A DNA stretch of 40,481 nucleotides. It comes from a virus. How positions within the stretch are numbered: the first letter of the stretch is position 1; the number at the start of each line of letters is the position of its first letter. Of this stretch, positions 840 through 40,232 are shown one piece after another. The stretch is from IMG/VR virus record IMGVR_UViG_3300010401_000024, positions 1-40,481 of that record, one strand, 5' to 3'. The position numbers and the translations under genes were made by a program. The notes beneath the pieces are model-generated. The model saw nothing but the letters and a program-made list of their open reading frames with translations, was not told the DNA's origin and did no database searches.

Positions 840-1213
840 TCGGTCTCGTCCTCCCAATGTTTAGGATTTTCGAGTATGAATTTAATTATTAGTTCCCTGT
901 CTATATCGTCCCAAGTTGCGGGTCGCGTTCCGCCGGTGTGTCTTTCATGTTGGCCAAAGCCGGAGTCCTCGTAATATTCGACCTCTCCGCGAAACTCGAG
1001 GATTTCCGCCTCCGTAAATTTTATAATTTTTGGTTTGTTGTCATATATGAAAAGAGCGTACTCGTCCGTATATTCCGAGAGGTCGATTATTGTTTTGTCG
1101 TTGCTCCGGCCAAAAGTAACGCAACCGAGAGAGCGCGTCGAGGTTTTATTGTCAATAATTATTCCGTCTTTTGTTATTAAGTCCGGAGGCGGGAGTCTAA
1201 ATTCTTTTTGCAT
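836..1213 (-). CDS. Unknown protein beginning with a copied nuclease segment
   Basis: The protein has 125 residues. Residues 9-28 (PPDLITKDGI then IIDNKTSTRS) nearly repeat residues 138-156 of the Cas4-like nuclease at 35914-36738, including the D-x-K active-site strand. At DNA level about 55 bases correspond, with roughly one mismatch in six. The rest is acidic, matches nothing in the nuclease and holds no motif I know. The start codon follows CGGACAAAGACAAA, the start-proximal motif common in this phage. It looks like a chimera made by a short illegitimate duplication. It lacks the other catalytic parts and is unlikely to be a nuclease. Confidence 0.75.
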   Translation of the reverse strand: MQKEFRLPPPDLITKDGIIIDNKTSTRSLGCVTFGRSNDKTIIDLSEYTDEYALFIYDNKPKIIKFTEAEILEFRGEVEYYEDSGFGQHERHTGGTRPATWDDIDRELIIKFILENPKHWEDETE

Positions 1214-37045: not shown

Positions 37046-37064
37046 GGTAGTGTCTTAATTTGAA
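37046..37064 (+). repeat. Left terminal inverted repeat
   Basis: GGTAGTGTCTTAATTTGAA, exactly inverted at 40214-40232. Identity ends at base 20, so the repeat is 19 bp. The next ~250 bases to the first gene hold the AT-rich leader and the promoter at 37250-37280 and no gene that I can find. Confidence 0.93.
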
Positions 37065-37249
37065 AGTGGCGAAAATAGCGTTTTTTTAATAACGCCTATT
37101 GACTCTTAGCAATCTTATACGTATTGTGATAAGAGAATACTCCAAAAATTTATACCCTTTTAATGTAATAAAACACTTAAAATCGAACAATTTCGCAATA
37201 TATTCCTCGTTGTTATCCTCTAAGCCTCGTTTTCCCCCCTCTAAGTTAT

Positions 37250-37280
37250 TTGACTTTCGTCTGTAAATGTATTAAATTTG
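37250..37280 (+). promoter_or_regulatory. Promoter of the winged-helix gene
   Basis: TTGAC (37250-37254), 18-base spacer, TAAATTTG (37273-37280). The same spacing and -7 form as in the phage, showing both use the same host sigma factor. GAGGATTAAAA precedes the ATG 37 bases downstream. Confidence 0.7.
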
Positions 37281-37316
37281 TAATAGCAAATAAATAATTA
37301 ATTACGAGGATTAAAA

Positions 37317-37814
37317 ATGTTGACCGACAAACAAATCCAAGCAAGGGAGAAACTTGAAAGCCTCCTCAAAGAAGAAAAAGCTAAGTATGAGGCACTATAC
37401 GAGGCTGAAACACAGTGGATAAGAGATTTACTTGAAAATTTACCCAAAAATGGCATAAACGCCAGCGTTAGCTCTGCGGACTCAAACCTTTCCAAAAAAC
37501 AAAAACTTAAAAAGGACGAAAAAAAGGATACTTTTATGACAAAGGTAGCCCAAATTTTGCAGGAGGCTAACGAACCTCTTACTGTTACCGAAATGATTCC
37601 AAAAATGAACAAAATTTCAGCAAAACAGTATGATTATGCCAAGTTTTCGGGCACGTTATCTGCTCAATATAAGTCTAAACGTAGCCCTATTAATCAGGAA
37701 AAAATTTCCGATTTCCCGATTAGTTATAGGTATTTGTATGCTTTAAAAGATTGGTATGATGAAGCAGGAAAACTTAAAGATGAGTTTTATTTAAAAATTT
37801 TAAAAAGAAGATAA
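37317..37814 (+). CDS. Transposon winged-helix protein
   Basis: The protein has 165 residues. The first ~60 form a charged coiled coil (AREKLESLLKEEKAKYEALY), then comes a winged-helix domain at ~75-125: MTKVAQILQEANEPLTVTEM then IPKMNKISAKQYDYAKFSGT, similar to HARE/wHTH modules in which a helix with 'LTVTEM' precedes the recognition helix. The C-terminus is basic. It could regulate the element, for instance at the shared palindromes, or bind transposon ends; this is inference. Shine-Dalgarno GAGG precedes the start. Confidence 0.7.
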   Translation: MLTDKQIQAREKLESLLKEEKAKYEALYEAETQWIRDLLENLPKNGINASVSSADSNLSKKQKLKKDEKKDTFMTKVAQILQEANEPLTVTEMIPKMNKISAKQYDYAKFSGTLSAQYKSKRSPINQEKISDFPISYRYLYALKDWYDEAGKLKDEFYLKILKRR

Positions 37815-37881
37815 AAAATAGGCGACCAAGTTTTATAAGTCGCCTAAATTCATCGTATATACAAAAATGTTCCTTTATTGT

Positions 37882-37970
37882 GGTGGCATGGCTGAACTGG
37901 TGAAAGCACCCGACTTATAATCGGGCATCCGTTGACCGACGGTTTATAGGTTCAAATCCTATTGCCACCG
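37882..37970 (+). tRNA. Class II tRNA with UAU anticodon, Ser-like body
   Basis: A complete cloverleaf: acceptor GGTGGCA/TGCCACC (7 bp), U8, D-arm GCT/AGC with GG in the loop, anticodon stem CCCGA/TCGGG with loop CTTATAA (anticodon TAT at 37916-37918), long variable arm with CCGT/ACGG stem, T-arm ATAGG/CCTAT with TTCAAAT, discriminator G at 37970. CCA is not encoded. The long arm and G73 are serine-type features; leucine and tyrosine tRNAs have A73. The anticodon reads AUA, an isoleucine codon. It may charge serine at AUA, or be a non-decoding RNA. Confidence 0.85.
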
Positions 37971-37974
37971 CTAC

Positions 37975-38045
37975 GCAGAGTAAAGAAGATTTCCAGTCAC
38001 GCCTGAGAAGCACTCGACTGGGTGGTTCAGTTGCCACACTCTGCA
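37975..38045 (+). ncRNA. tRNA-like three-helix RNA
   Basis: Five bases after the tRNA, GCAGAGT (37975-37981) pairs with ACTCTGC (38038-38044), enclosing CCAGTC/GACTGG (37993-37998, 38016-38021) and GTGG/CCAC (38022-38025, 38034-38037). The last two helices abut directly. The size (71 nt), 7-bp closing stem with an unpaired A after it, and arm order resemble a tRNA lacking the D-arm. It has no known riboswitch signature. The gap 37815-38342 holds no gene except these RNAs, the promoter and the leader. Confidence 0.5.
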
Positions 38046-38169
38046 CTTATATAAAAGAACTACAGCAAAGATAATAGATATTGACGCAATTGTCAAGGGT
38101 TTTTGGTGTATTTCACTAATAAAACAGTAGTTTATGTTGCAGTTTTAAGGGTTTATTTTTTCAAAAAAA

Positions 38170-38184
38170 TATCATACAATGATA
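38170..38184. promoter_or_regulatory. Palindromic operator upstream of the transposase promoter
   Basis: TATCATACAATGATA is an inverted repeat with 6-bp arms. It is followed by CT and, 22 bases after its end, by TATATTTG. The same arrangement occurs before the Panacea gene (39215-39229). It occupies the -33 region, where no good TTGAC is present, so it either hosts an activator or a repressor that blocks polymerase. Confidence 0.65.
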
Positions 38185-38206
38185 CTCATAACCAAAAATA
38201 GTTATC

Positions 38207-38214
38207 TATATTTG
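38207..38214 (+). promoter_or_regulatory. Transposase -7 promoter element
   Basis: TATATTTG matches TAnnTTTG exactly. The -33 position, 18 bases upstream, reads ACTCA and does not match, consistent with a regulated promoter under control of the adjacent palindrome. Transcription would begin near 38221, just before the structured leader. Confidence 0.55.
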
Positions 38215-38228
38215 TATATAAATAAAAC

Positions 38229-38322
38229 GGGCTTTCATGGTGTTGACGCACCAATCAGCCCTAAACTCAAATGCCTGCGTTGACAGACAAACGAATCTAA
38301 ACAAAGATAATTCGTTGCAGGC
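38229..38322 (+). ncRNA. Structured 5' leader of the transposase mRNA
   Basis: Two hairpins: GGGCT/AGCCC (38229-38233, 38257-38261) with inner GGTG/CACC (38239-38242, 38249-38252), and GCCTGC/GCAGGC (38273-38278, 38317-38322) with inner ACGAAT/ATTCGT (38291-38296, 38310-38315). They fill the space between promoter and AAAGGAA ribosome binding site. It may limit transposase translation, as in IS10 or IS1 leaders that avoid readthrough expression, or sense a ligand. Confidence 0.6.
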
Positions 38323-38342
38323 TCAAAAGAAAGGAACTTGCA

Positions 38343-39194
38343 ATGAACAAATTATCAAAAGAGAAACAAATTACAGTATTATCCGCACTTGTAGAGGGAA
38401 ATTCAATTAGAAGCATTGAAAGAATGACAGGTATTAACAGAAATACCATTATGACCTTGCTCAAATCAGCCGGACAAAAAGCACAAGAGATTTTAGACAG
38501 CCAATTAGTAAATATTAAATCTAACTTAATTCAGGTTGACGAAATCTGGACTTTTGTTGGCAAAAAACAAAAACAGGTTACATTAGAAGAAAGATACGAG
38601 CAAAACAATACAGAGCTTGGCGACCAGTACGTATTTGTGGCTATTGACGCTGAAACAAAATTAGTTACAAATTATTTGGTAGGTAAAAGGGACGCTAAAA
38701 ATACTTTATCATTCTTACAGGATTTAAATGCAAGGGTCTCAACTGAATTTCAGCTTTCAAGCGATAGTTTTGCACCTTATAAACACGCTGTAAGAAGAAC
38801 ATTTGGCAGGGATATTGCATATGCACAAATTCATAAACAGTTTGGTGAAGAAGTCAGAGAAGAAAAAAGATATAGCCCTGCAAGAATAACGGGAATAAAC
38901 ATAATCCCAATATCGGGTGAGCCTAAAATGGAACATATCTCTACTTCTTATGTAGAAAGACAAAATTTAACCATGAGAATGAGTATGAGACGCTTTACAA
39001 GGTTAACCAATGCTTTCAGCAAGAAGTTAGATAATCTTAAACACGCCGTTGCATTACATTTCTTTCATTACAATTACATGAGGATTCATAAGACTTTAAG
39101 GGCTACACCTTGTATGGTTGCAGGTGTTACAAAAACTATTTGGAATTGGGATATGTTTTTAAAATATGGTGAAAATTACAAAAATGTCGCATAA
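38343..39194 (+). CDS. IS1-family transposase
   Basis: The protein has 283 residues in a single frame; classical IS1 requires a frameshift. A helix-turn-helix lies at ~8-45 (SIRSIERMTGINRNTIMTLL). The DDE core has QVDEIWTFVG (D66), a second Asp near LSSDSF (D141) and SYVERQNLTMRMSMRRFTRL (E205), the IS1 signature. The C-terminus has FFHYNYMRIHKTL. It cuts and joins the 19-bp ends of the element. AAAGGAA precedes the ATG. Nothing suggests it is broken. Confidence 0.92.
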   Translation: MNKLSKEKQITVLSALVEGNSIRSIERMTGINRNTIMTLLKSAGQKAQEILDSQLVNIKSNLIQVDEIWTFVGKKQKQVTLEERYEQNNTELGDQYVFVAIDAETKLVTNYLVGKRDAKNTLSFLQDLNARVSTEFQLSSDSFAPYKHAVRRTFGRDIAYAQIHKQFGEEVREEKRYSPARITGINIIPISGEPKMEHISTSYVERQNLTMRMSMRRFTRLTNAFSKKLDNLKHAVALHFFHYNYMRIHKTLRATPCMVAGVTKTIWNWDMFLKYGENYKNVA

Positions 39195-39214
39195 AATCAG
39201 TTACTCGGAAAAAA

Positions 39215-39229
39215 TATCATATCGTGATA
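39215..39229. promoter_or_regulatory. Palindromic operator upstream of the Panacea gene
   Basis: TATCATATCGTGATA, arms TATCA/TGATA, with the same flanking AAAAAATATCAT and GATACT as at 38170. It ends 21 bases before TATATTTG (39251-39258). Confidence 0.65.
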
Positions 39230-39250
39230 CTGTTTTGAGGGATTTTTTGG

Positions 39251-39258
39251 TATATTTG
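39251..39258 (+). promoter_or_regulatory. Panacea operon -7 promoter element
   Basis: TATATTTG, exact TAnnTTTG, six bases before the ATG at 39265, so the message has almost no leader. As at the transposase promoter no TTGAC lies 18 bases upstream; the operator occupies that place. Confidence 0.55.
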
Positions 39259-39264
39259 TATTGT

Positions 39265-39774
39265 ATGAAAGCCAAAATTCTTAAAAATAGCCATAATCTT
39301 ATAGATTCATCCGAATTAACCAACTATATCCTTGCTAAAGGTGGTTCTATGAATCATTTAAAATTACAAAAAGTATTGTATTATGTAGAAGCATGGCATT
39401 TAGTTTTTTTTAATAAATCTATTGTTGAGGATGAATTTCAAGCGTGGGTTCATGGACCAGTGTCAAAAAAACTTTGGAATGAGGTTAAAAATCTTTCTGT
39501 ATTATATAGTGAACTTGAAGTTAGTAAACCAGAAAAAATAATAAAAGATGTTGAGGAAAAATTAAACCAAGACCAAATTGATTTAATTAATGATGTTATA
39601 AAGAAATACGGCAAGCAAAGCGGATACAATTTAGAATGCTTGACTCATAATGAATTACCTTGGATAGAAGCAAGAGAAGGTTTATCCCCCAATGCCCCAA
39701 GTAATAATATAATTTCAAAAAAAACTATGAAAAAATATTATTCAGAACTACTTCATAGATATACAAAAAAATGA
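39265..39774 (+). CDS. panA: Panacea-domain (DUF4065) antitoxin
   Basis: I use the ATG at 39265-39267 (169 aa), after the -7 box; an upstream ATG at 39166 would overlap the transposase. The domain reads LTNYILAKGGSMNHLKLQKV then LYYVEAWHLVFFNKSIVEDE and FQAWVHGPVSKKLW, the classic Panacea/SocA/GepA pattern (LKLQKLLYY, AW-x-x-GPV). Panacea proteins are hyperpromiscuous antitoxins that pair with many toxin folds. It is followed at an ATGA overlap by the presumptive toxin. The promoter is presumably autoregulated. Confidence 0.88.
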   Translation: MKAKILKNSHNLIDSSELTNYILAKGGSMNHLKLQKVLYYVEAWHLVFFNKSIVEDEFQAWVHGPVSKKLWNEVKNLSVLYSELEVSKPEKIIKDVEEKLNQDQIDLINDVIKKYGKQSGYNLECLTHNELPWIEAREGLSPNAPSNNIISKKTMKKYYSELLHRYTKK

Positions 39775-40196
39775 CCAAGATACCCTCCCAAGCTACAAAA
39801 AAGAAAAAAAGCCTGTTAGAAAACCTACCCGAACCAACAGATAAATACAAAAAGAAATATATTTTGTTTAGTTATTTGGATTTTGATGTAAAGCAAAGTG
39901 AATCATTTGAAGATTGGCAGAAGTTAGAATTATTAGCCGAAAAAACAAACAAGTTTCATCATTATAGTAAACTACGTCTTGATGAAGCCTTTAGCGATAA
40001 ATTTAAAATATATAAGGGATTTCCTGAGAAATGCGGATATAAATTTCCTGAAACCCTATCAAAAGACGCAAAATGGTGTTCAATGCATATAAAAGGGAAA
40101 GAATGTGTTATTGGACACATAGTTGAAAATATATTCTATATAGTATTTCTTGACAAAGACCACAAGTTTTATCCTACCGAAAAAAAGAATACATAA
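39771..40196 (+). CDS. Presumptive toxin partner of the Panacea protein
   Basis: The protein has 141 residues and its ATG overlaps the antitoxin stop. The N-terminus is basic (TKIPSQATKKKKSLLENLPE). The core reads FSYLDFDVKQSESFEDWQKL; the end has AKWCSMHIKGKECVIGHIVE then NIFYIVFLDKDHKFYP, with a closing D-x-x-H that resembles a small toxin family found beside Panacea genes. Such partners include translation or membrane inhibitors; I cannot assign the target. The assignment as toxin rests on the operon with PanA. Confidence 0.65.
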   Translation: MTKIPSQATKKKKSLLENLPEPTDKYKKKYILFSYLDFDVKQSESFEDWQKLELLAEKTNKFHHYSKLRLDEAFSDKFKIYKGFPEKCGYKFPETLSKDAKWCSMHIKGKECVIGHIVENIFYIVFLDKDHKFYPTEKKNT

Positions 40197-40213
40197 ATAT
40201 TCATCACAATAAA

Positions 40214-40232
40214 TTCAAATTAAGACACTACC
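40214..40232 (-). repeat. Right terminal inverted repeat
   Basis: TTCAAATTAAGACACTACC, the exact reverse complement of 37046-37064. It begins 17 bases after the toxin stop codon, so the cargo reaches to the very end of the element. Confidence 0.93.

Follow-up and report, generated by a model that had tools for sequence, protein, structure and literature searches.

A serine-type tRNA gene with an isoleucine anticodon inside an IS1-family transposon, and related elements carrying tRNAs of mismatched body and anticodon

Introduction

Known informational suppressor tRNAs are mostly laboratory mutants, and natural tRNAs that combine a body with a non-matching anticodon are a puzzle. The closest precedent for the tRNA described here is the group of allo-tRNAs (Mukai et al. 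2017, reviewed in PMC7609411), which combine serine identity with non-serine anticodons, UAU being among the commonest of the 8/4 type, and which have 8/4 or 9/3 acceptor branches (PMC7609411). Seryl-tRNA synthetase (SerRS) does not read the anticodon (reviewed in PMC7609411). Allo-tRNAs are suspected passengers of mobile elements, and their carrier is not defined in the literature consulted.

The stretch of DNA analysed in this study, hereafter the window, covers the whole of an uncultivated virus record (40,481 bases). Its single tRNA gene joins a serine-type body to the anticodon UAU, and the transposon that carries it belongs to a family in which mismatched tRNAs recur.

Results

Structure of the tRNA and its carrying element

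Sequence reading, ARAGORN, Rfam and folding place a class II tRNA gene of the G73 serine type, with anticodon UAU, at 37882-37970 on the plus strand, and it is the only tRNA in the 40,481-nt window. ARAGORN called tRNA-Ile(UAU) at 37882-37971, and Rfam RF00005 matched 37882-37970 with 64.5 bits (E 6.5e-12; family cut-off 29). The acceptor stem (GGTGGCA/TGCCACC) is Watson-Crick paired at 7 of 7 positions and the T-stem (ATAGG/CCTAT) at 5 of 5, forming a 7/5 branch, and these are joined by a D-stem (GCT/AGC), an anticodon stem (CCCGA/TCGGG) and a long variable arm (CCGT/ACGG). The anticodon loop reads CTTATAA (CUUAUAA); U8, A14, G18G19, A21, U33, A37, A58 and the discriminator G73 are present, and CCA is not encoded. 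Among 200 shuffles a single one folded more stably (z -3.25). An earlier note had described an intact cloverleaf with strong stems, a long variable arm, G73 and UAU, all of which is borne out by ARAGORN, the Rfam score and our reading of the stems.

The same note had set the tRNA against the codon use of the phage genes, which is an incomplete picture. The phage gene block lies on the minus strand and extends up to 36738; the tRNA lies instead within a 3187-bp IS1-family transposon (37046-40232, plus strand), between an accessory ORF and the transposase, and is transposon cargo rather than a phage tRNA. The element was delimited by an inverted-repeat search, which found terminal inverted repeats (TIRs; GGTAGTGTCTTAATTTGAA) at 37046-37064 and 40214-40232, and by comparison of these TIRs with those of relatives. 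It begins with ORF A (37317-37814, plus strand; 165 aa), for which no family was matched in Pfam, NCBIfam or PADLOC, followed by a hairpin that separates it from the tRNA (37819-37846, plus strand; fold z -4.67), a putative terminator although it lacks a long T-run. After the tRNA come a structured leader 5' of the transposase start (38229-38325, plus strand; fold z -4.05) and an IS1-family transposase of 283 aa (38343-39194, plus strand) that matches PF03400 with 29 bits (cut-off 24.1) and NF033558 with 70 bits, under the cut-off of 100. The element ends with a cargo gene for a SocA-like Panacea-domain antitoxin (39166-39774, plus strand; PF13274, E 8e-23) and an adjoining 141-aa ORF (39771-40196, plus strand), by position a possible toxin partner, which has only a weak NsnC match (E 0.0013). 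The two (39166-40196) form a probable toxin-antitoxin pair. Directly 3' of the tRNA, at 37975-38044 (plus strand), a possible second tRNA-like fold is tentatively recognized (fold z -2.32), with a 7-bp acceptor-like stem (GCAGAGT/ACTCTGC), two arms and no D-arm; neither ARAGORN nor Rfam called it.

Relatives of this element, found by transposase similarity and labelled with L-numbers, have matching terminal repeats, and of the 64 whose TIRs are good, 42 are flanked by target duplications of 6-9 bp, mostly 8 bp. No duplication flanks the window copy; the contig ends 250 bases away from it, and its flank may therefore be rearranged or mis-joined. ORFs built like ORF A precede the tRNA in L018, L023 and L044. 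In L203 (1907-2626), L031 (3002-3724) and L106 (2849-3589) the accessory ORF 5' of the tRNA is replaced by a DUF5343-like protein, assigned by a weak Pfam match in L203 and L106 and by resemblance in L031. Near the left end of many elements lies a small basic protein of 75-94 aa with the motif GGLKGGxARA (L044 2510-2749, L064 2089-2316, L203 1290-1538, L023 3749-4033), the L023 copy of which matched no Pfam family when checked. Several transposons adjoin ordinary tRNA genes 0-70 bp outside their repeats (L277 4855, L318 3855, L079 1953 and 5983, L118 3345, L051 5542, L023 6710), so the family may tend to insert near tRNA genes.

Hairpins resembling the leader recur in the Ignavibacteria-type relatives L013, L015, L016, L019, L117-L121 and L125-L127, and the window leader had no match in Rfam. 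An AAATATA-like stretch is conserved in it, and its minus strand reads TATATTTG, which appears to fit a Bacteroidota-type promoter (-7 box) better than a T-box; T-box-like sensing via AUA was rejected on this ground. The leader may represent an antisense RNA locus controlling transposase translation. A pairing partner for the anticodon arm was also sought in nearby RNA; the 10-nt match at 37833-37842 was dismissed as chance, since 2 of 100 shuffles did as well and ten relatives lack a counterpart.

Identity of the tRNA body

Bodies were compared, with the anticodon masked, against 88 distinct tRNAs from three genomes carrying related elements. The window tRNA scored 22.0 for Ser, 21.0 for Thr, 18.5 for Leu and 6.5 for Ile, making Ser its nearest body class by a narrow margin only. 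The stronger argument for serine identity appears to be the combination of class II architecture and G73, because the class II reference tRNAs carry G73 in 10 of 10 Ser tRNAs and A73 in all Leu (15/15) and Tyr (3/3) tRNAs. Thus, the serine-type body with a noncognate UAU proposed in the earlier note held up: the class II fold, long variable arm and G73 of a serine tRNA are all present, a serine anticodon (NGA or GCU) is absent, and the class I isoleucine body of a tRNA-Ile(UAU) is not found. Serine is most likely the amino acid with which this tRNA would be charged, since SerRS ignores the anticodon.

An ordinary phage helper tRNA, bringing isoleucine to AUA-rich phage genes, seems to us very improbable. 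Phages often carry tRNAs for host-rare codons, and the earlier statement that the phage genes use AUA often was confirmed, this codon accounting for roughly 0.3-0.45 of the Ile codons of the genes sampled. However, the tRNA sits within a transposon and not among phage genes, its body scores 6.5 for Ile against 22 for Ser, and it is of class II with G73, whereas the normal tRNA-Ile(UAU) of a related genome is of class I. The latter, an ordinary tRNA at L139 1501-1575, belongs to an Ignavibacteria genome that carries the sister element. AUA may be decoded without lysidine in that genome, and the earlier premise that a lysidine-modified CAU tRNA is the normal reader of AUA is not a safe one in this host group.

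Recurrence of tRNAs in related elements

In a scan of about 130 distinct related elements, a tRNA or tRNA-like sequence was present in at least 13, in the same slot and orientation as in the window, with none on the opposite strand. ARAGORN and Rfam together identified a tRNA directly upstream of the transposase and on its strand in L012, L015, L018, L044, L064, L090, L203 and L298, the L203 tRNA being identical in L201, L202 and L205. A strict geometric search for an acceptor stem plus T-arm in 105 distinct upstream regions returned 11 tRNA-likes; every one is on the strand of the transposase, and the minus strand gave no match. The 791-kb control gave 12 matches, of which nearly all were genuine tRNAs and seven came from one phage array; L203 and L298 came on top of the 11 tRNA-likes. 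Relaxed settings gave 14 matches in 130 regions (L080 unconvincing), again with none on the minus strand, and 23 in 556 kb of control. The matches in L023, L031, L068 and L106 are short (68-71 nt) with reduced D-arms, the anticodon arm of L250 is oversized, and a degenerate class II copy in L025 was spotted by eye. In most copies the tRNA lies between the accessory ORF and the transposase, and it is retained even in L090 and L298, minimal elements of 1323 bp and 1651 bp. Other positions were found in L026, between transposase and right repeat, and in L314, downstream of the transposase in an element whose borders are not known. Separately, L126 has an odd Gln/Glu-like tRNA (1060-1136, minus strand; CUC anticodon, degenerate T-loop) downstream of another family transposase, where an element border was not found.

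On the transposase tree, the 12 tRNA carriers need at least eight changes. In the sister element L012, whose transposase is 78% identical, the tRNA body is another one, of class I and with an 8-base loop. The slot thus appears to have been filled more than once, or else its tRNA was exchanged or remodelled fast.

Mismatch between body and anticodon

The nearest body agrees with the anticodon in 75 of the 88 host tRNAs and in none of the 11 transposon tRNAs with a recognisable body. Four of the transposon tRNAs are of Ser type, with UAU (window, L025), CAA (L018) and an 8-base loop read GATA (L015), and three are of Leu type, with UUA (L090, L203) and GAA (L314). Glu-like bodies carry AGU (L064) and UGC (L298), and Arg-like bodies GCU (L044) and ACU (L026), the Arg-like call being a reading of the identity nucleotides A20, C35 and U36 and not a nearest-neighbour outcome; the body of L012 is unclear. 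All four short copies show the alanine identity, G3:U70 together with A73; of the 88 tRNAs in the reference set only two do so, both of them Ala. By eye, their anticodons are CCU (L023), UUA (L068), probably CUA (L106) and perhaps UUA (L031). Several of these identity calls hinge on few nucleotides. Two anticodons recur: UAU is seen in two copies and the ochre anticodon UUA in at least three.

SerRS, LeuRS and AlaRS are the three synthetases that do not read the anticodon. Bodies of these types make up 11 of 16 transposon tRNAs against 31% of the reference (binomial P ~0.002, indicative only, as the body calls were made after the pattern was seen). The Glu synthetase does read it, and the Glu-like bodies of L064 and L298 count against anticodon-blind charging across the set.

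Judged by body and anticodon, these comparisons show the window tRNA to be one of a recurrent class of transposon tRNAs with anticodon-body mismatch, and suggest that related jumping genes put tampered tRNAs to some use. Recurrence in related transposons argues against the single mutation that the earlier note had named as a possible refutation; its call for homologues was otherwise answered only in part, in that an orthologue of the window tRNA was not found. A search of viral contigs with an anticodon-arm word returned no class II UAU homologue, DNA-level searches gave none in plasmids and ordinary tRNA similarity only in phages, and 197 host-class genomes yielded no orthologue in a search run without a positive control.

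It is unlikely, in our view, that these are captured host tRNA genes decaying without function, their mismatched anticodons being pseudogene mutations. The L018 tRNA is closest to the tRNA-Ser(UGA) of its own host, the elements often adjoin tRNA genes (L277, L318, L079, L118), which would ease capture, and degenerate copies exist (L025, L298). Yet slot and strand are constant in distant elements, with 12 carriers and at least eight changes on the tree; moreover, anticodons are altered while stems stay intact, UUA and UAU recur, and minimal elements retain the tRNA.

A tRNA mimic, in which the acceptor/T-arm half works and the anticodon is free to drift, is a more serious rival that we hold possible without favouring it overall. 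Such an RNA would recruit RNase P, RNase Z, the CCA enzyme, a synthetase or EF-Tu, and would either cut and insulate transcripts heading from the accessory gene into the transposase or serve as a decoy for tRNA-targeting enzymes. Consistent with this, nearly all copies preserve the acceptor and T-arm, and the anticodon arm is the most variable part, being rebuilt in L031, L068 and L106 and having an 8-base loop in L012 and L015; the four 68-71 nt copies with reduced D-arms still have G3:U70 and A73; and the tRNA is always on the transposase strand and mostly between the accessory ORF and the transposase gene. A decoy or structural RNA role is favoured for those relatives whose anticodon arms are rebuilt. 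On the other hand, free drift should not preserve U33 (11 of 12 anticodon loops) and A37 (10 of 10 seven-base loops) so well, and should leave some native anticodons, of which none survives. A promoter-like TTGAC...TATAAT also lies between tRNA and transposase in many relatives, so the tRNA need not be in the transposase mRNA.

Codon use in the carrying elements

Recoding of the elements' own genes was rejected: AUA in the window, UUG in L018, AGY in L044 and ACU/ACC in L064 miss columns conserved for the amino acid of the body. The AUA codons of the window transposase stand at Ile-tolerant columns, and judged by these the window tRNA does not appear to recode the transposase, AUA staying Ile. 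No in-frame UAA was found in the transposases of UUA carriers. Avoidance of the suppressed stop was likewise set aside, since none of four UUA carriers ends its transposase in TAA against a baseline of 37 of 127, which is not significant; the CUA carrier ends its transposase in TAG.

Discussion

The reading we prefer, with a probability of about 0.42, is that the window tRNA is a serylated natural missense suppressor at AUA, probably weakly expressed. It would be transcribed from its own short transcription unit and processed by RNase P and Z, and the host would add CCA. SerRS would then charge it with serine through the variable arm and G73, ignoring the anticodon, and the charged tRNA would compete with host tRNA-Ile at AUA, placing some serine there. 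The Leu-type and Ala-type versions of relatives would read UAA and, less surely, UAG. U33 and A37 are needed for decoding, and decoding of AUA by the window tRNA is possible because both are kept. Decoding is not a shared function of the whole set, given the 8-base loops of L012 and L015, the rebuilt arms of L031, L068 and L106 and the oversized arm of L250.

Efficient insertion of serine should be harmful, because AUA is common in the carrying phage and the transposase uses it at Ile-tolerant columns. Expression should therefore be low or conditional, as a strong missense effect would hurt a phage in which AUA is about 0.3-0.45 of Ile codons. The missense weapon suggested in the earlier note faces this same objection. 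Our best guess is that the benefit to the transposon lies in a selfish effect on the host, a dependence or toxicity favouring retention, rather than in decoding of its own genes. A bolder proposal, which we think rather improbable, is that this IS1-type family keeps a slot by the transposase dedicated to suppressor tRNAs for selfish low-level host mistranslation, on which host or co-resident genes become dependent. The slot would cover Ser-, Leu- and Ala-charged tRNAs reading AUA, UUG, UAA or UAG, and the arrangement would amount to a genetic-code form of addiction.

Natural anticodon-mismatched tRNAs can now be tied to a defined family of transposons, which has boundaries, target duplications and a tRNA slot at a fixed place. 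The family supplies many independent examples, natural ochre-suppressor-like tRNAs among them, and makes it a testable question how a mobile element profits from a miscoding tRNA. In open-licence papers, IS1-type transposons with such a slot were not found described, which speaks only weakly for novelty.

Classical IS1 is 768 bp long, frameshifted and cargo-free. The elements described here share with IS1-family insertion sequences the IS1 Pfam transposase domain, inverted repeats and, in relatives, 8-bp target duplications, but have a single-ORF transposase of ~280 aa that scores under the NCBIfam IS1 cut-off, a length of 1.3-5 kb, cargo genes and the tRNA slot. With the normal bacterial tRNA-Ile(UAU), as in the L139 Ignavibacteria genome, the window tRNA shares the anticodon UAU but not the class I, isoleucine/valine-like body, being class II with G73. 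Like informational (nonsense or missense) suppressor tRNAs, it joins a body of a given isotype to an anticodon that reads a different codon or a stop codon; unlike those mostly laboratory-made mutants, such tRNAs are here recurring natural transposon cargo. It resembles allo-tRNAs, as far as sequence can tell, in pairing serine-type identity with a noncognate anticodon, and by analogy may work like them. In terms of structure, however, it is not an allo-tRNA: its acceptor branch is 7/5 and the defining 8/4 or 9/3 branch is absent. A further difference is that its carrier element is known, in whose relatives the same slot also houses Leu-, Ala- and possibly Arg- and Glu-type bodies.
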